Shown here in pieces: positions 6,635-64,000 of a stretch of 64,000 nt of DNA. The notes beneath the pieces were generated by a model that did not search any database, was not told where the DNA came from, and was given only the letters and a program-made list of their open reading frames with translations. The position numbers were made by a program, and so were the translations under genes. Source of the stretch: Puia dinghuensis (GTDB taxonomy: Bacteria > Bacteroidota > Bacteroidia > Chitinophagales > Chitinophagaceae); the NCBI GenBank assembly GCA_026225275.1, contig JAMFSL010000016.1, forward strand, positions 1 to 64,000, written 5' to 3'. Every line of letters starts with the position of its first letter. Positions within the stretch are counted from its first letter, which is position 1.

Positions 6635-7294
6635 ATGCTAACAGCCAAAGGAATACAGAAATATTACGACAGCAACCTATGGGTGCTGAAAGGAGTGGAT
6701 GTGGACATTGCCAAAGGGGAGATCGTCAGCATTGTCGGTCCTTCCGGGTCAGGAAAGAGCACTTTACTGCATATTTTGGGCACTTTGGACGAGCCGGCTG
6801 CGGGAGAGATCTTTTTAAAGAATAAGAAGATCCATGAATTAAAGGGGAAACCGCTGGCAGCCTTCCGTAATCGTCATATCGGTTTTGTATTCCAGTTTCA
6901 CCATCTTTTGCCCGAGTTCAGCGCCCTGGAGAATGTGTGCATCCCAGGGTGGATTGCAGGGCGCAGGAAGCGGGAAGTGGAAGAAGAGGCTCTCCGGCTG
7001 CTAAATATCCTCGGGGTCGGCCATCGGACGGAGAATAAGCCTGGGGCCCTGTCTGGCGGCGAACAGCAGCGGGTAGCGGTGGCCAGGGCGCTGATCAATA
7101 ATCCCGACATCGTATTCGCGGACGAGCCTACGGGTAATCTGGACACAGCCAATGCGAAAGAACTGCACCAGCTATTTTTCGATCTGCGGAGTCAGTTTCA
7201 GCAGACCTTCCTGATCGTCACCCATAATGAAGAATTGGCCCAAATGAGCGATCGGGTCCTTCACATGAAAGATGGACTCATTATCGGGCACTAA
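6635..7294 (+). CDS. lolD: Lipoprotein-releasing system ATP-binding protein LolD-like
   Basis: The ATPase of a LolCDE-type complex that extracts lipoproteins from the inner membrane for transfer to the outer membrane. Walker [10 protein letters not shown] is at residues 35-43, the Q-loop lies in FVFQFHHLLPEFSALENV (a strong LolD hallmark), the signature is LSGGEQQRVAVARAL and Walker B is [12 protein letters not shown]. At 219 aa it is a bare ATPase. No LolC/E permease is adjacent, as is common in Bacteroidota where these genes are dispersed. Its 3' end lies one base from the convergent TPR gene. The MacB/LolD-type ATPase at 2075 is a relative but lacks the FHHLLPEF block. Confidence 0.9.
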   Translation: MLTAKGIQKYYDSNLWVLKGVDVDIAKGEIVSIVGPSGSGKSTLLHILGTLDEPAAGEIFLKNKKIHELKGKPLAAFRNRHIGFVFQFHHLLPEFSALENVCIPGWIAGRRKREVEEEALRLLNILGVGHRTENKPGALSGGEQQRVAVARALINNPDIVFADEPTGNLDTANAKELHQLFFDLRSQFQQTFLIVTHNEELAQMSDRVLHMKDGLIIGH

Positions 7295-53088: not shown

Positions 53089-53117
53089 AGTTAATTCTGC
53101 CGCTCCGGCCGCACAAA
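53086..53117 (-). promoter_or_regulatory. Promoter-like sequence overlapping the recG TTG codon
   Basis: On the minus strand, TTTG (53117-53114), 20 bp, then TAACTTTG (53093-53086) nearly match the Bacteroidota promoter. The -7 box contains both the stop codon of the upstream membrane gene and the only TTG start of recG. Chance overlap cannot be ruled out. Confidence 0.45.
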
Positions 53118-54770
53118 AACTTCGATAACCCCCTGAGTTTCCGCCCCCCGCCTCGGCGCCGGGAAAGAGTCCACCTGAGAATAGTGCAGCCGCAATGAAT
53201 CCCGGACACGGAAAGGATAAAAATTGTTCAGCGTGGGAATGTATTCAAAAAGGATCAGGTCATAATAATGATCCCGTACCCTGGTCTCTAACGTGTCCGC
53301 CTGACGATTGAACATGCCAACCCCGAGGTGATACCACAACGGAAGATATGGATTCCTTTCCAGCCTGTAAGGGATCTCCGCCGCCAAAGGAGTCAGCTCG
53401 GACATGTTCAATACCTTCAGATCACCGGGCGCATCGCCAGGCTTACGTCCCTCCCGGTATTTCCTGATCAGATCCATATCCAACAGCCTGTGGATACCCA
53501 CTACCGTGGACGCCGGCATGGAGATCTTGTGAAAAACCGGCAGATCGCACTCTACCCACTCGCTCATCGGAATGTCACGGGTAGTATCCCGGGAAATCAT
53601 ATAGGTATCCTTATTGACGATATTCTCTCCGGTAGGAGAGACCGTAGCCATCTCCTTTTCCGGAAGAAATTTCGCCACGATCTTCTGCGTATAGTTCCAC
53701 CAACTGCCGCTCCACCAGAACACGATACCCAACGACAAGACTAAAAGCACAACCGGCTTTTCAGGCTTCACGGGCAACAGCGGCGCCAGTAACGAAAAAG
53801 CGCAGGCAAAACCAAAGCTTTGAAAGAAGATATTGTTGTCTGGCGGAGTATAACTCGTGATCTTCAGGATAGCCGCCTCTCCGAGAATGCCAAAGGTCAA
53901 AGCTACCAGCAACACGGCAGCCCTGTCCGCCCGCAATGCGCTCCAGCTCCGCCAACGTACGAAGGACAATACCCCTATGAAGAAAAAATAAAATTTGATC
54001 CACGGAGAATACCCAAAAAATTCATTCAGAATATCGAGCAGAGATACCCGTGAGGAATGCGGCGGTTGCCCATGGTTGAACCAATACCCGAAACCATGCG
54101 AGAGAAATGGTGCGACGATCAAACCCAGCAGAACGACAAAACTACCCGCATAGATCAATAGCGCCTTCCACTTCCCCTGCAATAACCCCTCCACAGCCAG
54201 CACCCAGCAGACCACCACAACCGCCAGACCACCGCCATCCTGCTTCGTGAGAAAAGAACAACACGTAAAAAAAGCTGCGCCCACGAGCCAAAACAGTTCA
54301 TAACGACCACTTCTTCCGGCCATGTCCGCCCGAATATAACGAAACACAAAGGCCAGCGCCACCAGTTCATAAACGATCACTGAATGATTGTACCAGGGCC
54401 AGAAATTGAAAAAGCTGTATGACAGACAAAATAGCAGGACCGACGCCAGCCGGATCCCCCGGTCTACGGAGAGACTCCGCAAGATGCTACGGAACGAAAG
54501 CCCTGCAATAACATTGATCAATACCTGCGCCTTCACCAGCGTGATCATCCTGGCCCCGAAAAGCTTGAAGAAGATCGCGGGAATGACCCAATACATCCCG
54601 CCAAGCGGAATCCCGAAATCCCGGAATGGCAGTTGCCCCTGGCTCATCCGATAAGCCCCTTCCCAGGATAGAAAAATATTTACCCGATAAGGCAAATGAA
54701 TGAATAAAGGCACACAAGCCAATAAAACGATGATCAACACCTCTGTTCTGGCGATAAATTTTGGGGTCAT
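53091..54770 (-). CDS. GT-C type membrane glycosyltransferase (GT39/ArnT-like)
   Basis: A 559-aa polytopic membrane protein with about ten to twelve helices and a C-terminal soluble region of about 190 residues. The first periplasmic loop (FLSWEGAYRMSQGQLPFRDF, then GIPLGGMYW) carries acidic residues where GT-C enzymes place the catalytic base. That suggests transfer of sugar from a polyprenyl-phosphate donor. I start at the ATG ending at 54770; the open frame upstream to 54857 is hydrophilic and lacks support. It is divergent from the UbiA-type gene, and its product may use the donor lipid made by that cluster. The acceptor is unknown. It ends 2 nt before recG's putative TTG. Confidence 0.8.
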   Translation of the reverse strand: MTPKFIARTEVLIIVLLACVPLFIHLPYRVNIFLSWEGAYRMSQGQLPFRDFGIPLGGMYWVIPAIFFKLFGARMITLVKAQVLINVIAGLSFRSILRSLSVDRGIRLASVLLFCLSYSFFNFWPWYNHSVIVYELVALAFVFRYIRADMAGRSGRYELFWLVGAAFFTCCSFLTKQDGGGLAVVVVCWVLAVEGLLQGKWKALLIYAGSFVVLLGLIVAPFLSHGFGYWFNHGQPPHSSRVSLLDILNEFFGYSPWIKFYFFFIGVLSFVRWRSWSALRADRAAVLLVALTFGILGEAAILKITSYTPPDNNIFFQSFGFACAFSLLAPLLPVKPEKPVVLLVLSLGIVFWWSGSWWNYTQKIVAKFLPEKEMATVSPTGENIVNKDTYMISRDTTRDIPMSEWVECDLPVFHKISMPASTVVGIHRLLDMDLIRKYREGRKPGDAPGDLKVLNMSELTPLAAEIPYRLERNPYLPLWYHLGVGMFNRQADTLETRVRDHYYDLILFEYIPTLNNFYPFRVRDSLRLHYSQVDSFPAPRRGAETQGVIEVFVRPERQN

Positions 54771-54804
54771 TGGGTAGAAGTTAATTAATTTATTGTTAAC
54801 CGTT

Positions 54805-54835
54805 CCATGGGTGCAGTCTTCGACTGTACCTATGG
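54805..54835 (+). other. 14-bp stem hairpin between divergent glycan genes
   Basis: CCATGGGTGCAGTC at 54805-54818 pairs with GACTGTACCTATGG at 54822-54835 around the loop TTC. In plus-strand RNA both imperfect positions are G-U pairs, so the stem is continuous. In minus-strand RNA they become C-A mismatches. It lies 107 bp upstream of the UbiA-type GTG start and within the minus-strand leader of the GT-C gene. It could be a leader RNA structure or a DNA-binding site. Confidence 0.4.
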
Positions 54836-54942
54836 TTGATCGTTCGGGTATTGGCAATCCGGCTGCCGCGGATTTAAATATTCGATGGCAATATTATAGA
54901 TTTTGTCTTTTTGTTTGTACTTTAGTTGGGTAAATTAATGAA

Positions 54943-55827
54943 GTGGTATATCTGAAGCTCCTAAGGCCCAAGGATTGGGCAAAAAATCTGTTCCTTTTCC
55001 TGCCTTTATTTTTCGGTCGCGAGATCTTCAATCTCGAAAAAATGTTCCATGTGGCATTGGGCTTTATCGCCTTCTCCTGCATCGCAAGCAGCATCTATAT
55101 CATCAACGATTATAAGGACAGGGAGGACGACCGCAAACATCCCGTGAAATGTAAACGCCCCCTCGCCTCGGGCGCCGTTTCGCCGGCTGCAGCCCTGGTT
55201 GTCTGCGGAGCTCTGATCGTAGCAGGCTTCGCCCTGTCCTGGTGGATAAGGGATAAATTTGCCATCGTGCTGGCCATCTACTTTCTGATCAACCTCTCCT
55301 ATTCGCTGGGGCTCAAAGCTATATCCATCCTCGATATCATGATCCTGGCCGCCGGCTTTGTCCTGCGGATCAAAGCGGGCTCTGTGATCTCCTATGTCCC
55401 CCTCTCGGAATGGATCATCATCATGGTCTTCCTCCTGGCGGTATTCATGGCTATCGGCAAACGCAGGGATGACGTACTGCTCAAAATCTCCTCCGGCACT
55501 GATATGCGCAAATCCATCAAAGGCTATAACCTGGAATTCCTGAACGTCCTCCTCTCCTTTGTCTGCGCCGTGATCGTCGTCGCCTACCTGATGTATACCA
55601 TGTCACCCGTGACGATCGCCAACACCGGCTCTTCAAGATTGTATTATACCTGTATCTTTGTGCTCGCAGGAATCATGCGATACCTTCAGATCATCTATAT
55701 CTCTAGCGATTCTGGCTCGCCTACCAAGATCCTTTACAAAGACCGGTTCATCCAGATCACCCTGATTTTGTGGGGGATCAGCTATATCCTTTTATTATAT
55801 CTCAAGGACGTTCATATATTCTCTTAA
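54943..55827 (+). CDS. UbiA-family prenyltransferase, decaprenyl-phosphate phosphoribosyltransferase-like
   Basis: A 294-aa inner-membrane protein with about nine helices. The first aspartate-rich motif is INDYKDREDDRKHPVKCKRP, with Asn55, Asp56, Asp59 and Asp63. The extended HPxKxxRP tail is characteristic of the DPPR synthase group (Rv3806c in mycobacteria) rather than quinone UbiA enzymes. SLGLKAISILDIMILAAGFV matches the second conserved segment. It would condense PRPP with polyprenyl phosphate to give polyprenyl-phosphoryl-5-phosphoribose. The start is GTG at 54943, because a stop lies four codons upstream and no ATG is in frame. It opens a five-gene plus-strand cluster; the SDR gene follows after 5 bp. 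Confidence 0.85.
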   Translation: MVYLKLLRPKDWAKNLFLFLPLFFGREIFNLEKMFHVALGFIAFSCIASSIYIINDYKDREDDRKHPVKCKRPLASGAVSPAAALVVCGALIVAGFALSWWIRDKFAIVLAIYFLINLSYSLGLKAISILDIMILAAGFVLRIKAGSVISYVPLSEWIIIMVFLLAVFMAIGKRRDDVLLKISSGTDMRKSIKGYNLEFLNVLLSFVCAVIVVAYLMYTMSPVTIANTGSSRLYYTCIFVLAGIMRYLQIIYISSDSGSPTKILYKDRFIQITLILWGISYILLLYLKDVHIFS

Positions 55828-55832
55828 ATAAT

Positions 55833-56564
55833 ATGCCCTCAGTTCTATTACTTGGAGCAGGTTCCGACATCGCTACCGCGCTCGCTCTCAAATTCGCTTC
55901 TGCCGGGTACGGCATCCAACTGGCAGCAAGAAAGGTTTCGCGGTTACAGTCTTTGCAACAGGATATTACTATCTGCCACAAGGTATCGTGTACACTCCAC
56001 GAATTCGACGCGGTCAGGCCTGAAACCCATGCGTCCTTCTTTTCTTCCCTGCCCGGGCAGCCAGATATTATTATCAGCATCTTCGGCTATCTCGGAGAAC
56101 AGGAAATAGCCCAGTCGGATTGGTCGGAATGTGAACGCATCCTCGCCGTAAACTATGTCGGTGCCGTTTCCATCCTCAATATTGCAGCAAACGCCTATGC
56201 CGCCCGCGGAAACGGCGTCATCGTCGGCATCAGTTCCGTAGCCGGTGAAAGAGGCCGCCAAAGCAATTATTTCTATGGCAGCGCCAAAGCAGGCTTTACC
56301 GCCTACCTCTCCGGCCTCCGCAACCGCCTTTACCCCAAAGGAGTACACGTCCTCACCGTCAAACCAGGCTTCGTGGCCACTAAAATGACGGAGAATATGC
56401 CCCTGTCGCCCCTGCTGACCGCACAACCCGACGCAGTGGCCAAAGCCATCTTCAACGCCATTCAAAAGAAAAAGGACGTCCTCTACGTGAAATGGTTCTG
56501 GCGCTGGATCATGTTCCTGATCAAATGTATCCCCGAAAGTGTCTTCAAAAAAATGAAATTATGA
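55833..56564 (+). CDS. Short-chain dehydrogenase, DprE2-like
   Basis: A 243-aa NAD(P)-dependent SDR. The nucleotide-binding turn is LLGAGSDIATALALKFASAG, a GxGSDIA pattern typical of DprE2-type reductases. The catalytic Tyr148 and Lys152 lie in NYFYGSAKAG, with Ser134/135 in VGISSVAGERG. The C terminus has amphipathic/hydrophobic residues (WFWRWIMFLIKCIPES), also seen in DprE2 relatives. It would reduce the 2-keto intermediate when polyprenyl-phosphoryl-ribose is epimerised to arabinose. The ATG at 55833 is preferred over the extended frame from 55770, which overlaps the UbiA-type gene. The stop overlaps the HAD gene (ATGA). Confidence 0.83.
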   Translation: MPSVLLLGAGSDIATALALKFASAGYGIQLAARKVSRLQSLQQDITICHKVSCTLHEFDAVRPETHASFFSSLPGQPDIIISIFGYLGEQEIAQSDWSECERILAVNYVGAVSILNIAANAYAARGNGVIVGISSVAGERGRQSNYFYGSAKAGFTAYLSGLRNRLYPKGVHVLTVKPGFVATKMTENMPLSPLLTAQPDAVAKAIFNAIQKKKDVLYVKWFWRWIMFLIKCIPESVFKKMKL

Positions 56565-57160
56565 GCCGGATCGCCTTCTTCGATTTCGACGGCACCATTA
56601 CCACCAAGGATACCTTACTCGAATTCATCCGGTTCAGCAAAGGCACACTCCCTTTCTATACGGGCTTCCTGCTGAACAGCCCCTGGCTTATCGCCTATCG
56701 GCTGAAGATCATCTCCAACCAGACTGCCAAAGAACGTATCCTGGCCTGGTTCTTTCGCAATACCCCGCTGACAGAATTCCAGGAGACCTGCGACCGCTTC
56801 GCGACGGAAGTGATACCCACCCTCATCAGACCTAAAGCACTCAGCGAGATCGATGCATTACAAAACAAAGGATTCTCGATCGTCATCGTCAGCGCCTCCC
56901 CCGAAAACTGGCTGCACCGGTGGACCGATACCATCCGGGCCAGCCTCCTCGCCACACGCCTCGAAACACGACCAGGCAAAGAAGCACAACTGACCGGCAA
57001 AATAATCGGCCATAATTGCCATGGAAAAGAAAAGGTCCGCCGCATCGGGGACGCATTCGATCTGAGTAGTTACAAGGAAATATACGCTTATGGAGACAGC
57101 TCGGGAGATAAACCTATGCTGCAACTGGCGCACCATTCGTTCTACCGGCCCTTCCGCTGA
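56561..57160 (+). CDS. HAD-IB family phosphatase
   Basis: A 199-aa haloacid-dehalogenase-like hydrolase of the phosphoserine-phosphatase type. Motif I is FFDFDGTIT with the nucleophile Asp8 and acid/base Asp10. Motif II is IVIVSASPENW, a Lys precedes motif III (HGKEKVRRIG), and motif III is IYAYGDSSGDKPML. It overlaps the SDR gene by four bases, so it is translationally coupled to the two polyprenyl-phosphopentose genes. It may therefore remove the 5-phosphate from polyprenyl-phosphoryl-5-phosphoribose, a job done in mycobacteria by an unrelated PAP2 protein. That substrate is my inference. Starts upstream of 56561 are unsupported. Confidence 0.88.
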   Translation: MSRIAFFDFDGTITTKDTLLEFIRFSKGTLPFYTGFLLNSPWLIAYRLKIISNQTAKERILAWFFRNTPLTEFQETCDRFATEVIPTLIRPKALSEIDALQNKGFSIVIVSASPENWLHRWTDTIRASLLATRLETRPGKEAQLTGKIIGHNCHGKEKVRRIGDAFDLSSYKEIYAYGDSSGDKPMLQLAHHSFYRPFR

Positions 57161-57185
57161 TCATCAACATCTAATATAAAAGCCC

Positions 57186-58415
57186 ATGCACCCCACTTCC
57201 GATAGCCCTGATACCCTCGTCGGAAAGGATATCCTGATCATCGGTATCCAGCCGTGGTATTATGAACTCGGCAGCAACTGCAAGAACATCGCGACACATT
57301 TTGCTAAAACAAATCGGGTCCTGTATGTGAATATGCCCATCAACCGCAAGACCTTTCTGTCCCGCACCCAATCCCCCGGCGTCCGCGAACACTGCGCTAT
57401 CATTAAAGGGAAAAGCGATCCCATCCGCCAGATCGGCGATACGATGTGGGAGCTCTATCCCACTTCTATTGTGGAATCCATCAACGGCCTCCCGTCCAAC
57501 ACGCTCTTCAACATCATCAATTACTTCAATAACCGGCGATTTGCCCGCGACATCCGGAAAGCACTGGACCGACTGGAATTTAAAGACGTCATCCTGTTCA
57601 ACGACGACGATATCTACAACGGCTTTTATCTTAAAGAGCTGCTGAAACCCGCGCTTTATATCTACTATATGCGCGACTTTCTGCAGGGATATGACTATTG
57701 GCGAAAACATACCAGTGTCCTTGAGCCCAGGCTCATCAAAAAAGCCGATGTCGCCCTCGCCAATTCCCTCTTCTACACCGACTATTGCGCAGCCCGCAAC
57801 GCCGAATCCTACTATATCGGCCAGGGCTGCAATTTCGATCTGTTCAATATGGACAACACCCACCCCCGGCCCCCGGAATTGAACGACCTCTCAGGACCGC
57901 TCATCGGCTACGTCGGAGCCGTGGACACGACAAGACTCGATCTCCAAATCATTGAGATCATCGCTACAGCAAAACCTTCGTGGAATATCGTACTGGTAGG
58001 GCCCGAAGACGCAGTCTTCGCGTCCAGCTCCCTGCATGCCCTGCCCAACATTCATTTTATCGGAAGACGACCGCTGGAATCGCTGCCCGCATTCGTGCAG
58101 CATTTTGATGTCTGCCTCAATCCACAGCTGATCAATACCATTACCAAAGGCAATTATCCGCTGAAAATCGACGAATACCTTGCTATGGGCAGGCCCGTTG
58201 TCGCTACCCGCACCCCAACGATGAAATTATTTGAAGATTATACCTGGCTTGCGGACGTGCCGGATGACTATCCCCGGCTTATCGAAGAAGCGCTTCACCA
58301 CGACACCCCGCAGGAACGCACCCGAAGGAGCACGTTTGCCCGGGCGCATACCTGGGAAAATTCCATGAAAGAAGTATACAAAGTCATCAATAACCACTTA
58401 ACCCGGCGACCATGA
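57186..58415 (+). CDS. GT4-like glycosyltransferase (TuaH-like)
   Basis: A 409-aa GT-B fold glycosyltransferase without a signal peptide. The N-terminal domain begins with ILIIGIQPWYYELGSNCKNI. The C-terminal donor-binding domain contains PLIGYVGAVDTTRLDL, IVLVGPEDAVFASS, HFIGRRPLESLPAFVQHFDV and the nucleotide-sugar motif PLKIDEYLAMGRPVVATRTP. The overall pattern is like the teichuronic-acid enzyme TuaH and related surface-polysaccharide transferases. Donor and acceptor are not readable. It lies 25 bp after the HAD gene, and its stop overlaps the next GT-C gene (ATGA), so it belongs to the same cluster. Confidence 0.88.
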   Translation: MHPTSDSPDTLVGKDILIIGIQPWYYELGSNCKNIATHFAKTNRVLYVNMPINRKTFLSRTQSPGVREHCAIIKGKSDPIRQIGDTMWELYPTSIVESINGLPSNTLFNIINYFNNRRFARDIRKALDRLEFKDVILFNDDDIYNGFYLKELLKPALYIYYMRDFLQGYDYWRKHTSVLEPRLIKKADVALANSLFYTDYCAARNAESYYIGQGCNFDLFNMDNTHPRPPELNDLSGPLIGYVGAVDTTRLDLQIIEIIATAKPSWNIVLVGPEDAVFASSSLHALPNIHFIGRRPLESLPAFVQHFDVCLNPQLINTITKGNYPLKIDEYLAMGRPVVATRTPTMKLFEDYTWLADVPDDYPRLIEEALHHDTPQERTRRSTFARAHTWENSMKEVYKVINNHLTRRP

Positions 58416-59563
58416 TCAATAACCCATTTTTTACCGCTACAGAAAAAGACGCATCCACCAATCGGCGCTATCTACTGGGCATCCTGCTTGTCGGAGCCCT
58501 CCTCCGCATTTGGATCTGCTTCTTTACCTCCCTGCCCCATATGCATAAAGACTCCTGGGGCTTTTTTTCGCAGGCGGATACGCTGCTCTCCGGAGGTTAT
58601 ACCGATTATTATCCCAACGGGTATCCCCTCATCATAGCCTTGTTTAAAGCGATTTTCGGATCGTATACGGAGGGGGCGCTGCTTTGGCTCAATATCGCCT
58701 TTTCACTTTTCTCTATCTGGTTCATGTACGATATCGCCAGCCGGCTGTCCGGTCGCGCATCTTATGGATTGCTCGCCGCAGCCCTGCTCGCCGTTTTCCC
58801 TTCACAGATCAATTATGTTCGCTGGCTGACCTCGGAAACGCCTACCCCCTTTTTCCTGCTGGGTGGCTTTTTTTTCTATTACCGCAAGCAATGGGCGTGG
58901 GCGGGTATATTCCTTGCCATCGCAACGCTGATCCGGCCCAACGTATTGCCTGTTTGGCTGCTGCTATTCATTGTTCACGTCTTCCATACCCGTAAATTCC
59001 CCCCGATGCTCGCCGTAGGCGTCCTATTGCCTCTGCTGCTCCTCGGGTTCTATTGCAAGTCAAAGACCGGTCAATTTTCTACGGCCGGCAACAGCAGGGT
59101 AAACATCCTCTTTGCCATCACTGCATCCGGGCCTGATGTCGACTTCTCCATGCCCGACGAACATCCTGAGGCCAATACCACCGGAAAAGCCGTTCATCTC
59201 TACGTCGACCACATCAAAACCGAGCCCCTCCTGTTCCTTCGCCAACGTCTCGCCAATTGGTGGGAGCTCTGGGGCTTTTATGCCTCCTCGGCCAACGGAA
59301 CCAGAAGCATGGGCTCCCGCCTCCTCCTGGGCGCCGGCAACCTGTTCCTCCTGGGTTTTGGTCTCACTGGCTGGTGGTTGCAGCGCCGAAATTATGCAGT
59401 CTCTATTCTCATTATCCCATTTTTGATCATTACCGCGGTGCACGTCCTGCTCGTCGCAATGCCCCGGTATACTTATCCCTGCGAGGCCTTCCTGCTGCTG
59501 CTGGCTACCTGGGCCTTACAAGCCCTCGCCAGCCGCCGGACGTCGTCCCCCGCTACTGCTTGA
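58412..59563 (+). CDS. GT-C type membrane glycosyltransferase (PMT/ArnT-like)
   Basis: A 383-aa polytopic membrane protein. An Asp-containing first periplasmic loop (TSLPHMHKDSWGFFSQADTL) and the following GGYTDYYPNGYPLIIALFKA resemble the GT39/RgtA-type family, which transfers sugars from polyprenyl-phosphate donors. About nine further helices follow. It is short for the family and lacks a large C-terminal soluble domain, unlike the GT-C protein at 53091. It is translationally coupled to the GT4-like gene upstream. It could use the polyprenyl-phosphate pentose made by the cluster. Its 3' end overlaps the convergent RCC1/PKD gene by 11 bp. Confidence 0.82.
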   Translation: MINNPFFTATEKDASTNRRYLLGILLVGALLRIWICFFTSLPHMHKDSWGFFSQADTLLSGGYTDYYPNGYPLIIALFKAIFGSYTEGALLWLNIAFSLFSIWFMYDIASRLSGRASYGLLAAALLAVFPSQINYVRWLTSETPTPFFLLGGFFFYYRKQWAWAGIFLAIATLIRPNVLPVWLLLFIVHVFHTRKFPPMLAVGVLLPLLLLGFYCKSKTGQFSTAGNSRVNILFAITASGPDVDFSMPDEHPEANTTGKAVHLYVDHIKTEPLLFLRQRLANWWELWGFYASSANGTRSMGSRLLLGAGNLFLLGFGLTGWWLQRRNYAVSILIIPFLIITAVHVLLVAMPRYTYPCEAFLLLLATWALQALASRRTSSPATA

Positions 59564-62500
59564 CAAACTTGTTGATCACTCGCTGGCCGCTGCTGCTCCT
59601 GATCACCAGGACGTAGACCCCGCGCGCAAGCGCACTAACATTTAAGGTATAGGTACTCGCTCCACCTTCCTGTTCGTATTCGGACTTTTGCTCAGTGACC
59701 CCAACCTCATTGTAGATGGTTATCGTGAACTGCTCCTGACCCGTCGATTGATATTGCACATACAACATACTCTGTACCGGGTTAGGATAGATACTGACGT
59801 TATTGGTGAACCGGCGCTCGTCCGGCACGACCACCACACTGACCGTAGACGTGGCTGTATTACCGTTATTGTCCGTGACTGTCAGCATGTATACATAGGT
59901 ACCCACCTGGAACCCGGTGACTGTCGCCGTGGAATTGGTCGAATCGCTGATCGTAGTAGTCGAAGGACCACTGACCTGCTGCCAGGAATACCCGACAATG
60001 TTCCCGGATGAAACCGTAGAGGAGGTACCATTCAAAGTCGCCTGGTTACCCGGCAGATGCACCGTATCCGTGATCCCGGCATTGGCTACGAGGGCAGCTG
60101 TGGTGACCGCCGTCACGGTGATCGTTATATTCGCACTCGCCGTAAGGCCTTCATTGTCGGTTACAGTCAGCTGGAAACTATATACGCCCGGCTGCATACC
60201 ATATAAGGATGGAGTGGCCGTATTGGAATTGGTGATCGTAACACCACCCAGCCCGCTGACCTGCGACCAATCATAGCTGACGATCGTACCATCGGGAGAG
60301 TAGGAGCTTGAACCGTTCAGATCGACCGACGGTACGTTTTGCGGTACTGTCTGATCAGGACCGGGAACAGCGACGGGCGGCAGATGCGGCGCGGGATTGA
60401 CCGTCACCGTAACGGTAGCGTTCGCCGTGACACCGGAATTATCTGTTACCGTCAATTTGAAGACATAACTGCCCTGTACCAGCTCGCCCGCTGAGGCCGT
60501 GGCCGAAGAGGCGCTGCCGATGGTGGCCTGGGAAGGACCGCTGACCTGCGTCCAGCTGTAGCCCGTTATCGTACCATTGGTTTCCGATCCGCTGCCACTC
60601 AATGTCACACTGTTCAAAGGCAACGTGATCGTCTGAGCCGATCCGGCATCAGCGCTGGGTGGCCCCGCCACAGCGGCATTAACGGTCACCTTAGCGACAT
60701 CGGTCGCGGTATTACCCGAGTTATCCTTGACGGTCAGCTGGAAGGTATATACACCCTGCACCAGGCCTGCGACGCTGGTCTGCGCCGCGCTTCCGCTGGC
60801 GATGGTCGCAGTGGAAGGACCACTCGTCTCGGTCCATGCATAGCTCACGATGGTCCCATTGGTTTCGGACCCGCTGCCACTCAGCGTCACGCTATTGGTC
60901 GGCAGCGTGATCGTCTGATCCGCACCGGCATTCGCCACTGGCACCGGAGGAGCCGGTGCAGCGCTAACGGTCACCTTGGCGACATCGGTCGCTGTGTTAC
61001 CCGAATTATCTTTGACGGTCAGTTGGAAGGTATATACACCCTGCACCAGTCCTGTGACGCTGGTCTGCGCCGTGCTTCCGCTGGCGATGGTCGCAGTGGA
61101 AGGACCACTCGTCTCGGTCCAGGCATAGCTCACGATGGTACCATTGGTTTCGGACCCGCTGCCACTCAGCGTCACGCTATTAGTCGGCAGCGTGATCGTC
61201 TGATCCGCACCCGCATTCGCCTCTGGCACGGGAGGAATCACTGCAGCGTTAACGGTCACCTTAATGACATCAGTTGCAGTATTGCCCGAATTATCGGTAA
61301 TAGTCAGTTGGAAGGTATATACACCTTGCACCAGGCTCGTGACACCTGTCTGTGCCTGGCCTGCACTGGCGATGGTCGCAGCGGAAGGACCACTCGTCTC
61401 GGTCCAGGCATAGCCCACGATGGTCCCATTAGCTTCCGATCCGCTGCCACTCAACGTCACGCTATTGGTCGGTAAGGTTATCGTCTGATCCGCACCGGCA
61501 TTCGCCACAGGTGCTCCGGGCGTTGGGGAATTCACCGTTACCTTCATGGCATCGGTAGCCTTTACACCCGAATTATCGGTGACGGTCAGTTGGAAAGAAT
61601 ATACGCCCTGCACCAGGCCGGTGACGCTGGTTTGCGCCTGATCGCCGCTGGCGATCGTCGCAGTGGAAGGACCACTTAACTCTGTCCAGGCATAGGAGAC
61701 GATTGTCCCGTTCGTTTCCGATCCACTGCCACTCAGCGTGACGCTATTGGTCGGTAAGGTTATCGTCTGATCCGTACCCGCATTCGCCACTGGCACCGGA
61801 GGAGCCGGTGCAGCATTAACCGTTACCTTGACGGCATCAGTCGCGGTCTTACCCGAATTATCAGTGACGGTCAGTTGGAAAGAATATACACCCTGCACCA
61901 GGCCGGTGACGCTGGTTTGCGCCTGGTCCCCGCTGGCGATCGTCGCAGTGGAAGGACCACTTAACTCTGTCCAGGCATAGGAGACGATTGTCCCGTTGGT
62001 CTCTGATCCACTGCCACTCAGTGTCGCACTATTGGTAGGCAACGTGATGGTCTGGGCAGATCCTGCATTCGCTGACGGCGGCCCCGGCACCGGAGCATTC
62101 ACCGTCACCTGAACGGTGGCCGTAGCCTTTATACCCAAAATATCGAGGATTGTTAATTCGAAAGTATATACGCCCTGAACCAGGCCCGTGACGCCCGTTT
62201 GGGCCACGCTTGCAGTGGTGAAAGTCGCCGTGGAAGGACCGCTGACCTGCGTCCAGCCAAAAGAGGAGATCGTCCCATTGGTTTCAGATCCGCTGCCGGT
62301 CAACGTTGCACTGTTGGTGGGCAAAGTAATAGTCTGATTCGATCCGGCATTGGAAACCGGCGCACTCGGTGCGGCATTGACGGTCACCGTGACTGTAGCG
62401 CTCCCCGCAACACCCGAACCATCGGTTGCAGTGAGCTTGAAGGTATAGGTACCCTGTACCAGCCCGCCCGCCGTCGCAGTAGCCGATGACGCATTGGTGA

Positions 62501-64000
62501 ACGTGGCGGTTGAAGGCCCGCTGACCTGCGTCCAGGCATAGCTTGCGATGGTGCCACTGGTTTCGGTAGCGCTGCCGCTCAACGTCACACTGTTGGTAGG
62601 CAACGTAATAGTTTGATTGGAACCGGCATTGGCAGTCGGACCGCCATTGTTGACGGTTACAGTAACGACGGCGCTGTCCCTCAGCCATCCATTATCGATA
62701 CACCGGAGCTGGAATTTATAGACACCCGTGACCAGACTATTCACCGTTGCCTTCGCTCCGCTGGGGATGACGATCTGCGCGGTGCTGGGACCCGATACCT
62801 GCGTCCACAGATAATAGCTGATAAATACATTATCGGTAGAACCCGTTCCGTCCAGCGTAGTAGTGGATCCGGTGATGTTCTGGTTTGCACCCGGATTAGC
62901 CACCGGCTTCGTATTGGCCGGAATAGCATAGACGCTACAACCCGTAGCATTGGGATTGGTGAGACATTCGGGAGAAGTAGATTGAATAGTACCCGTTTGA
63001 AATGGATTGATCGCCGTAATATACGGCACATCAAAGGAATTGGGATAATCCGCGGCTATTGCACCATTAGTATAGTCGCCGTCCATGACCCCATTGCCAA
63101 GGACCCCGGCTTTATTCCGGCCCCAGGAATATATTTTGCCGTTGGCGTCTACCGCGAACTGGTAAAAGACCGTCTCCTGGCCCTGTCCCAACCCCACAAA
63201 ATTATTGATGCCTGCCGCAACCTGGATAGGCTTATGCTGCTGAAGCTCAGCCGCACTCAGATTCCAGTCCCATGCATACGGTGCAGGCGTAGTGCCACCG
63301 TAAGGAGCAGGATTAACGGTATAAATGCCATAATTCAATTCTGTCCCTTCCCCGATCTGACCGCATTCATTTCCACCCCATGCCCACAACGTCCCGTTGG
63401 TCAGGATCACATATGTCGAAGTCCTGTTACTAGTGATCTGGGAGATGGGCGCCTGCAGGTTCAGCTGGTTGTCCAGTAGAAGGGGAGCAGGCGTGTTAGC
63501 CCAACCTTCGCCGGCCGTAGCCCCTACACCCATATAGCCCTGATAAAGACCCCAGCCATAAAGACTGCCGCTCTGCAACAAAGCATACGACCACATCCCG
63601 CCACCGGCAATATCCTTGGCAGGACCAGGCAGCGATACCTTCTGCGGATCCTCATAATCCGTACGGCTTGTACTTCCCAACAAACAGTCATTGGGTCCAT
63701 TACCAGCCCAGGTCCACACATTACCAGCCGCATCCAATGCTAACGCAGTATTGGAGATCAGCACCTTCGTAATAACCGTACCCGCGGGGAAAGGCACTTG
63801 CACGGGTCTCGTATTGACCATCCCGTAAGTACCATTACCGCGGTAACCACCTTGCGTATTACCCCATACCCACAACGTTCCATCGTTCTTTACGGCAAAA
63901 ATACAGGCGCCATAACCTTGGCCGCCCGTAAAGATCGAACTACCCATGGCTATATAGTTCACATTCGTAAAGGCATTGCCCAACGAGTCCGTTGTGACCT
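59553..64000 (-). CDS. Giant RCC1/PKD protein with T9SS type A sorting domain (5' end outside window)
   Basis: The open frame runs off the right edge without a stop, so the N terminus is missing; at least 1481 residues are visible. The first 370 contain RCC1-like propeller repeats (GTLWVWGNTQGGYRGNGTYG, GTLWAWGGNECGQIGEGTEL, GKIYSWGRNKAGVLGNGVMD). Eleven PKD/REJ-like domains of about 94 residues follow (recurring QTITLPTNSVTLSGSGSETN, SYAWTETSGPSTATI). A C-terminal T9SS type A sorting domain closes it (VSIYPNPVQSMLYVQY, ITIYNEVGVTEQ, LARGVYVLVIRSSSGQRV). It is predicted to be secreted and surface-anchored or released. The middle PKD copies are almost identical in DNA. Ligand unknown. Its last 11 bp overlap the convergent GT-C gene. 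Confidence 0.88.
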   Translation of the reverse strand, partial: VTTDSLGNAFTNVNYIAMGSSIFTGGQGYGACIFAVKNDGTLWVWGNTQGGYRGNGTYGMVNTRPVQVPFPAGTVITKVLISNTALALDAAGNVWTWAGNGPNDCLLGSTSRTDYEDPQKVSLPGPAKDIAGGGMWSYALLQSGSLYGWGLYQGYMGVGATAGEGWANTPAPLLLDNQLNLQAPISQITSNRTSTYVILTNGTLWAWGGNECGQIGEGTELNYGIYTVNPAPYGGTTPAPYAWDWNLSAAELQQHKPIQVAAGINNFVGLGQGQETVFYQFAVDANGKIYSWGRNKAGVLGNGVMDGDYTNGAIAADYPNSFDVPYITAINPFQTGTIQSTSPECLTNPNATGCSVYAIPANTKPVANPGANQNITGSTTTLDGTGSTDNVFISYYLWTQVSGPSTAQIVIPSGAKATVNSLVTGVYKFQLRCIDNGWLRDSAVVTVTVNNGGPTANAGSNQTITLPTNSVTLSGSATETSGTIASYAWTQVSGPSTATFTNASSATATAGGLVQGTYTFKLTATDGSGVAGSATVTVTVNAAPSAPVSNAGSNQTITLPTNSATLTGSGSETNGTISSFGWTQVSGPSTATFTTASVAQTGVTGLVQGVYTFELTILDILGIKATATVQVTVNAPVPGPPSANAGSAQTITLPTNSATLSGSGSETNGTIVSYAWTELSGPSTATIASGDQAQTSVTGLVQGVYSFQLTVTDNSGKTATDAVKVTVNAAPAPPVPVANAGTDQTITLPTNSVTLSGSGSETNGTIVSYAWTELSGPSTATIASGDQAQTSVTGLVQGVYSFQLTVTDNSGVKATDAMKVTVNSPTPGAPVANAGADQTITLPTNSVTLSGSGSEANGTIVGYAWTETSGPSAATIASAGQAQTGVTSLVQGVYTFQLTITDNSGNTATDVIKVTVNAAVIPPVPEANAGADQTITLPTNSVTLSGSGSETNGTIVSYAWTETSGPSTATIASGSTAQTSVTGLVQGVYTFQLTVKDNSGNTATDVAKVTVSAAPAPPVPVANAGADQTITLPTNSVTLSGSGSETNGTIVSYAWTETSGPSTATIASGSAAQTSVAGLVQGVYTFQLTVKDNSGNTATDVAKVTVNAAVAGPPSADAGSAQTITLPLNSVTLSGSGSETNGTITGYSWTQVSGPSQATIGSASSATASAGELVQGSYVFKLTVTDNSGVTANATVTVTVNPAPHLPPVAVPGPDQTVPQNVPSVDLNGSSSYSPDGTIVSYDWSQVSGLGGVTITNSNTATPSLYGMQPGVYSFQLTVTDNEGLTASANITITVTAVTTAALVANAGITDTVHLPGNQATLNGTSSTVSSGNIVGYSWQQVSGPSTTTISDSTNSTATVTGFQVGTYVYMLTVTDNNGNTATSTVSVVVVPDERRFTNNVSIYPNPVQSMLYVQYQSTGQEQFTITIYNEVGVTEQKSEYEQEGGASTYTLNVSALARGVYVLVIRSSSGQRVINKFVKQ
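60400..62660 (-). repeat. In-frame tandem array of 279-285-bp PKD-domain repeats
   Basis: The conserved VTV motif codons recur with matching positions at about 60408, 60690, 60975, 61260, 61542, 61827, 62109 and 62388, spacings of 279-285 bp (93-95 codons). The units around 60690-61250 differ by only a few bases, pointing to recent duplication or gene conversion. The array is a likely hotspot for length change by recombination and for assembly collapse. Confidence 0.85.

Follow-up and report, generated by a model that had tools for sequence, protein, structure and literature searches.

Within the 64,000 nucleotides of Puia dinghuensis DNA analysed here (contig JAMFSL010000016.1 of assembly GCA_026225275.1; hereafter, the window), a cluster of six genes, which encode a UbiA-superfamily protein, a short-chain reductase (SDR), a HAD-IB phosphatase, a GT4-type glycosyltransferase and two GT-C proteins that we denote GTC588 and GTC383, probably makes polyprenyl-phosphoryl-D-arabinofuranose that is spent, via GTC588, on a surface glycan. 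This reading is built on the identities of the genes, the residues of their sites, co-occurrence and linkage across genomes and the predicted fold of GTC588, and from these the catalytic steps, the sugar, the flippase and the acceptor are deduced. At the level of sequence, the original prediction of a polyprenyl-phosphate-linked pentose donor used for attachment at the cell surface is supported by a DprE1 homologue in the genome, by the affinity of the UbiA protein with decaprenyl-phosphate phosphoribosyltransferase (DPPR synthase), and by its binding site for phosphoribosyl pyrophosphate (PRPP). Mycobacteria and their relatives are the best-known source of D-arabinofuranose, and the donor chemistry expected here is the same as in the mycobacterial decaprenyl-phosphoryl-arabinose pathway (Rv3806c, Rv3807c, DprE1, DprE2 and GT-C arabinosyltransferases).

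In the proposed pathway, the UbiA protein, judging by its site residues, would transfer 5-phosphoribose from PRPP to polyprenyl phosphate, and the HAD protein, as suggested by context and precedent, would take off the 5-phosphate. DprE1, encoded on another contig, would then oxidize C2 of the ribose, and the SDR would reduce the product with inverted configuration to give arabinose, both roles being suggested by homology and co-occurrence. The lipid-linked sugar might be flipped by a protein encoded outside the cluster, perhaps, as a conjecture, by one of two GtrA-family proteins. Finally, GTC588, as its fold and co-occurrence suggest, would hand the D-arabinofuranose on to an acceptor in the periplasm, for which a surface polysaccharide is the most likely candidate. 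The co-occurrence of DprE1 with the SDR favours arabinose over ribose as the sugar.

The UbiA protein matches PF01040, the UbiA superfamily, and scores 248.3 bits against NF008977, the model of decaprenyl-phosphate phosphoribosyltransferase, above the cut-off of 234; the cut-offs of two sister models are not reached (NF008978, 205.7 vs 207; NF008976, 169.6 vs 474), and the scores against the models of heme o synthase and ubiquinone UbiA are 34.0 and 29.7 bits, respectively. The earlier assignment of this protein to the DPPR type rather than to the quinone or heme type is thus upheld, by profile scores instead of a tree and by the PRPP site, and the motif that had been recognized in the translation is present (N55-D56-x2-D59-x3-D63, followed by H66-P67-x-K69-x2-R72-P73). 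The best match in the PDB is 8j8j (E 2.2e-38), the Mycobacterium tuberculosis enzyme Rv3806c (PMC11127046), for which 12 residues around PRPP have been named (PMC10994848). When these were mapped by eye onto the alignment with 8j8j, ten were found to be identical, namely R22, K28, Y70, N73, D77, K87, R90, Y138, K143 and K208 of Rv3806c, with the counterparts R8, K14, Y52, N55, D59, K69, R72, Y120, K125 and K190, and two to be changed, Q135 to N117 and Y157 to F139. Across 123 aligned UbiA rows, which include some genomes twice, nine of the ten shared residues are invariant and K190 is lysine in 111, with N117 and F139 each kept in 122. Rv3806c and the UbiA superfamily do not have their phosphoribose-binding sites in common (PMC10994848), and the preservation of the site here therefore argues against a prenyltransferase.

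The SDR exceeds the cut-off of NF005489, a model named only for SDR (338 bits vs 267), and its nearest solved structure is DprE2 (21gq chain C; 113.4 bits, with the next at 73.6). The HAD protein scores 120.3 bits against TIGR01490 (cut-off 98.3), conserves D8, D10, S113, D179 and D183, of which the first two form the catalytic aspartate motif, and finds no PDB match by sequence at E 0.01. In combining HAD-IB membership, this motif and coupling to a UbiA-type enzyme, it has the features of a PRP-type phosphatase. A precedent is the HAD domain that is fused to the UbiA-type enzyme of Citrobacter and removes the 5-phosphate, even if inactivation of this domain left some product (PMC11127046); by this analogy, the HAD protein may well be the replacement phosphatase that had been proposed. 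The UbiA, SDR and HAD proteins each exceed Pfam cut-offs and one NCBIfam cut-off apiece, so they are not products of chance open reading frames.

DprE1 is, as had been noted, not encoded in the window. The search of the host genome (6.59 Mb in 365 contigs) yields FAD_binding_4 matches at six places, one of which, on contig C210, is a DprE1 homologue, ruling out the absence of this enzyme. The protein covers positions 5-449 of the 449 of the DprE1 profile NF053785, and DprE1 accounts for each of its nine top-ranking PDB sequences (E 4e-91 to 2e-85; the next is at 4e-12). Read by eye, the neighbouring genes encode a protein of the outer-membrane type and a Crp-like regulator.

The components were traced in 147 sampled genomes of Chitinophagaceae, with strong matches only being counted (minimum scores of 130 bits for UbiA, 190 bits for the best piece of DprE1 and 750 bits for GTC588; E 1e-60 for the SDR). 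Such matches were found in 46 genomes for UbiA, 37 for DprE1, 36 for the SDR and 35 for GTC588. All 37 DprE1 genomes have UbiA, 36 have the SDR (in the exception, G030, the contig ends soon after DprE1) and 35 have GTC588; strong SDR and strong GTC588 matches are both missing from all 110 genomes without DprE1. In 14 control genomes, the DprE1 and UbiA models each match in ten at E 0.001, so that weak matches carry no meaning; at E 1e-50 for DprE1 and E 1e-30 for UbiA, the sole control matched is Corynebacterium glutamicum, and NF005489 at E 1e-60 matches none of the 14. The Fisher values are 1e-31 and 1e-33 over all genomes and 5e-8 within UbiA carriers, and contrasts within genera are better evidence of co-occurrence than these values: each of five genera (g1, g4, g5, g22 and g24) includes a sampled species with the full set of DprE1, SDR and GTC588 and another that lacks all of them. 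In the genus of the window (g1), G035 keeps RecG, UbiA, HAD and GT4 and has no SDR, GTC588 or DprE1.

By tblastn, used here in place of the open reading frame caller, the HAD gene is located within the UbiA locus in 38 of the 46 genomes, with or without DprE1. Among the eight misses, two genomes (G095, G124) have HAD beside DprE1 and the SDR on another contig (L126, L124), the locus stops at a contig end in three (G025, G030, G081), and two genomes of one genus (G014, G113) show no HAD in the examined stretch. The last, G126, encodes a 480-aa protein in which a HAD-like N-terminal part is joined to a UbiA part and which was not found by tblastn with the window HAD; the HAD family aligns with this N-terminal part (hhalign, 93% probability, 150 columns), although unrelated HAD-IB domains might match likewise. 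UbiA is present without DprE1 in nine genomes (G015, G035, G060, G066, G118, G125, G126, G134 and G141), in eight of which HAD is in the locus, with the fusion in the ninth. From the retention of this pair where DprE1 and strong SDR and GTC588 matches are missing, UbiA with HAD looks like a ribose-lipid core, and DprE1, the SDR and GTC588 like an arabinose module. Polytopic proteins of 385-585 aa (by simple hydropathy) are encoded next to or near UbiA in five loci without DprE1 (L088, L096, L107, L108 and L110) and are possible candidates for the transferase role in a ribose-only pathway.

The constant partner of the pathway is the divergent GT-C protein, GTC588, not the downstream GTC383. In the usual arrangement, UbiA, DprE1, SDR and HAD form one run, with GTC588 divergent or inside it, and, of the 37 DprE1 genomes, 33 carry GTC588 within the UbiA locus; it is found off the locus in G123, as two copies on other contigs, and in G124, on a second contig. 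A search of GTDB genomes with GTC588 as the bait returned 202 relatives, of which 80 were kept, the nearest among those fetched coming from Chitinophagaceae bacterium and Puia dinghuensis contigs. Nearby genes in the 80 loci include UbiA in at least 78, the SDR in at least 74, HAD in at least 71 and DprE1 in at least 58, all of these being lower bounds because the greedy open reading frame caller hides overlapped genes (UbiA in L068, DprE1 in L106). The bait loci overlap the 147-genome sample (e.g. L136/G076 and L137/G091), and the two sets are not independent. GTC383 occurs in 3 of the 80 bait loci and in 2 of 45 UbiA loci. Among 296 genomes sampled across the Bacteroidota, DprE1 (E 1e-50) is found in 64 and UbiA (E 1e-30) in 107, with UbiA in 63 of the 64 DprE1 genomes (the exception is G297), and GTC588 is found in seven genomes, all with DprE1.

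GTC588 has no convincing match among Pfam, NCBIfam or PDB sequences: its profile, compared with the PDB by sequence, finds four unrelated weak matches only, and Pfam, searched with 25 GTC588 proteins, gives weak matches only, each in at most 7 members. Two alignments were used, one of the window protein with 24 of 33 GTC588 proteins from loci of the family, the other with proteins from 70 of the 80 fetched loci (L129 failed the length filter and nine near-copies were dropped by eye). The structure predicted from 71 sequences (predicted local distance difference test, pLDDT, 87; predicted template modelling score, pTM, 0.89) has the GT-C fold, in that the first 15 PDB matches are all GT-C enzymes (best E 3.5e-4), AglB, ArnT, Pmt4, ALG3, AftA, Pmt1-Pmt2, PglB and AftB among them, followed by receptors and transporters of low probability. 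In GT-C-A enzymes, the first juxtamembrane helix carries an essential aspartate at its tip (PMC12041299), and the invariant E37 and D51, which follow the first helix of GTC588, are candidate counterparts. Judged by Pfam and NCBIfam, a comparison in which GT136 is not among the models, GTC588 seems to be an undescribed GT-C family.

The DprE1 of the host genome belongs to a separate clade. Eleven genomes, G000 included, first showed UbiA, SDR and HAD without an adjoining DprE1; in G085, it was then found by tblastn, and the remaining ten (G000, G028, G029, G077, G084, G103, G106, G122, G123 and G145) all have an unlinked DprE1 of one clade. Both kinds, linked and unlinked, are carried by G055 and G085. 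In a tree of 54 DprE1 rows, from which hits shorter than 900 bases, with stops or identical were dropped, the 11 unlinked rows group together beyond a branch (100/100) that sets them off from all 20 operon-linked rows. The tree, obtained in one search with long-branch warnings on other rows (L219 and L232), covers 11 of the 12 unlinked DprE1 loci, L015 of G055 being left out. It appears that the operon dprE1 has been lost where a DprE1 of the other clade is present. A broader scenario can be put forward only tentatively: GTC588 might found a new family of polyprenyl-phosphate-dependent D-arabinofuranosyltransferases that is inherited together with the DprE1 and SDR module, this module coming and going as a unit within genera and so switching the glycan between ribose and arabinose types, with DprE1 partly replaced by the distant, unlinked clade.

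Several observations weigh against the arabinose pathway. The host DprE1 scores 459.8 bits against NF053785, below the curated cut-off of 500; this cut-off is reached by none of the 296 genomes of the phylum sample and may, therefore, be set for actinobacteria. Likewise, the SDR stays below the cut-off of the DprE2 model NF053786 (196.9 bits vs 250). In the host genome, DprE1 is unlinked to the cluster, and no flippase is detected among the six cluster genes with Pfam and NCBIfam. Two family genomes, G054 and G061, have DprE1 without GTC588, and the DprE1-negative G136 has a weak, uncounted GTC588 match of 26.8 bits. In the phylum sample, GTC588 is missing from 57 of the 64 DprE1 genomes, where other transferases must serve. 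Furthermore, the Fisher values overstate independence because the genomes are related, and the searches went on to score only some of the first-look candidates in each genome (no more than 17 for the SDR, and 9 or 4 for GTC588).

Could GTC588 be a different GT-C enzyme, one that handles another sugar or acts as a ligase, with the pentose step left to GTC383 or to an unlinked GT-C protein? This is unlikely, to our mind, although its fold match is generic to GT-C enzymes, with AftA at rank 8 and AftB at rank 15, and although G054 and G061 manage without it. Strong GTC588 matches are found in none of the nine genomes with UbiA only and in none of the 101 without UbiA, as against 35 of the 37 with DprE1. 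All three genomes with GTC588 from outside the family have it no more than 4 kb from DprE1, and in two of these UbiA is 10-21 kb away. GTC383 is seldom linked to the pathway. Neither GT-C protein has a family match over the Pfam or NCBIfam cut-offs; the model of GTC383, made from four sequences, is weak (pLDDT 64), and its first 26 PDB matches are GT-C or GT-C-like, a GPI-transamidase subunit being counted as GT-C-like.

With a similarly low probability, the acceptor could be a protein, such as a surface protein secreted by the type IX system, instead of a polysaccharide. Of 35 cluster loci with a length of 15 kb or more, 23 contain genes for proteins with type IX C-terminal sorting domains, compared with 4 of 34 hand-picked control stretches from the same genomes, and arabinofuranose (Araf) on a Pseudomonas type IV pilin is cited in PMC11127046. 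This enrichment is tempered by the fact that the sorting-domain profiles were seeded with proteins of the window itself and by the shared ancestry of the loci. The clearest hint of a surface polysaccharide as the acceptor comes from a Flammeovirgaceae plasmid of 53.6 kb (CP139022.1; L277), which carries UbiA, DprE1 and the SDR together and, about 19 kb off, a gene annotated as hypothetical whose product is a GTC588 homologue of 41% identity. The adjacent gene has sub-threshold GT87 and PMT_2 matches and is followed by an O-antigen ligase gene; GTC588 and these neighbours are within a surface-polysaccharide locus, though one plasmid gene is annotated with a type IX secretion system (T9SS) sorting domain. 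The same case indicates that the module can reside on a plasmid.

Less probable still is an end donor other than arabinose, be it polyprenyl-phosphoryl ribose, another epimer or a keto sugar. Such a donor would fit the scores of DprE1 and the SDR below the curated DprE1 and DprE2 cut-offs, and the nine genomes with UbiA and HAD and neither DprE1 nor SDR suggest that some members of the family have a ribose-only version. It agrees less well with the structural proximity of the SDR to DprE2 (113 bits vs 74 for the next), with its 51% identity to the SDR of the rhizobial D-arabinosylation operon, and with the presence of DprE1 and the SDR together in 36 of 37 genomes; for the host genome, which has both, the ribose-only reading is disfavoured. 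A quinone or heme prenyltransferase in a coincidental neighbourhood, as bare membership of the UbiA protein in its superfamily (PF01040) would allow, is hardly credible and is rejected on the profile scores (248 bits for DPPR synthase vs 34 and 30) and the kept PRPP-site residues, along with the genome-wide tie to DprE1.

With regard to flipping, a dedicated flippase of the cluster was considered and rejected: none is among the six genes, and a flippase-like family named by eye (c14) is not constant, being found in 5 of 45 relative UbiA loci. There is also no MATE gene among the six, the search for MATE-type flippases being confined to the cluster. Two GtrA-family genes are present elsewhere in the host genome. 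A GtrA gene at C212:56325-56681 (L242) is located beside PgpA-type phosphatase-like and inositol-3-phosphate synthase-like genes (by eye), possibly forming an inositol-lipid operon.

Compared with the mycobacterial pathway, the PRPP site of UbiA is kept, DprE1 and DprE2 homologues are present and a GT-C protein is the likely consumer of the donor; the differences are that DprE1 is unlinked, that the HAD-IB phosphatase stands in place of Rv3807c, described as unrelated to HAD (PMC11127046), and that comparison of GTC588 with the PDB by sequence picks up neither AftA nor AftB. The three-component pentofuranose systems (Citrobacter youngae O1 and O2, GT136; PMC11127046) share a UbiA-type synthase, a HAD phosphatase (PRP) and a GT-C protein, and DprE1 and DprE2 homologues are reported in those of the Araf type; unlike these systems, the cluster has HAD as a separate gene and lacks a MATE gene. 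Pentofuranose systems have already been predicted in many species, and the main text of that article, its supplement aside, contains no word starting with 'Bacteroid' (PMC11127046).

The rhizobial noeCNHOP operon for D-arabinosylation of Nod factors (PMC5080398; NC_022536) shares UbiA, DprE1, the SDR and one transferase, with identities to the window-genome proteins of 51% for the SDR and 40% for DprE1; NoeP has no match to GTC588 or GTC383 by hmmsearch. No HAD gene is annotated in this operon, which has a GtrA gene instead. The gene at 6861-7283 of locus L278 (rhizobial plasmid NC_022536.1), between noeC and noeH, matches GtrA with 36.6 bits (Pfam cut-off 26.1) and, from the operon order, is probably noeN, which has been proposed to encode a phosphatase (PMC5080398); in view of this match, a flippase role looks more likely. 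In the cluster of the Lactococcus plasmid pLLF27D (NZ_PP589792), the HAD-IB gene is, as here, a separate one; it directly follows UbiA, and its product is 30% identical to the window HAD; a GtrA gene is present, and no DprE1 or SDR is annotated in the 10.8 kb examined.

The coordinates of the six genes are given in the table. The coupling read from the sequence at the outset is reproduced: the SDR gene starts after a gap of 5 bp from UbiA, HAD overlaps the SDR by 4 bp, the GT4 and GTC383 genes downstream overlap by 4 bp, and GTC588 diverges upstream of UbiA.

Genes of the cluster and their positions in the window
Gene product	Position	Strand	Remarks
GTC588 (divergent GT-C)	53091-54857	-	polytopic GT-C fold; candidate D-arabinofuranosyl transferase
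UbiA-superfamily polyprenyl-phosphate 5-phosphoribosyltransferase, DPPR synthase type (predicted)	54943-55827	+	GTG start; NF008977
DprE2-like short-chain reductase (SDR), NoeO-like	55833-56564	+	NF005489; nearest PDB entry DprE2
HAD-IB phosphatase, candidate 5-phosphate remover (polyprenyl-phospho-5-phosphoribose)	56561-57160	+	TIGR01490
GT4-type glycosyltransferase, C-terminal half TuaH-like	57186-58415	+	
GTC383, second GT-C protein	58412-59563	+	predicted structure

The start of GTC588 is more likely the ATG at 54770, close to where most homologues start. The GT4 protein scores 87 bits against the TuaH model, below the cut-off of 550, and is encoded in 15 of 45 UbiA loci of relatives, both where DprE1 is present and where it is not. 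Beyond GTC588 lie RecG and two PKD proteins with the CHU_C type IX domain; on the opposite flank, the end of a 1476-aa protein served as a seed for the type IX sorting domain. In the window (59553-63983) and in relative loci, genes with type IX sorting domains are often convergent and directly after HAD.

The chemistry proposed here is already known from mycobacteria, rhizobia (PMC5080398) and the three-component systems (PMC11127046). What seems to be new is the Chitinophagaceae version, in which HAD is a gene of its own, a GT-C family is dedicated to the pathway and a second, relocated DprE1 clade stands in for the operon copy; no account of the pathway in Chitinophagaceae or of GTC588 was found among the open-access papers searched, subscription papers lying outside this search. 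If the proposal is correct, many Chitinophagaceae would make lipid-carried D-arabinofuranose with three enzymes that are relatives of Rv3806c, DprE1 and DprE2, and would use an undescribed transferase family for this sugar; GTC588 would thereby represent a new GT-C family whose predicted donor can be tested. These easily handled bacteria would then be suited to the study of the pathway, and GTC588 together with DprE1 would be gene markers for strains with arabinose-bearing glycans.

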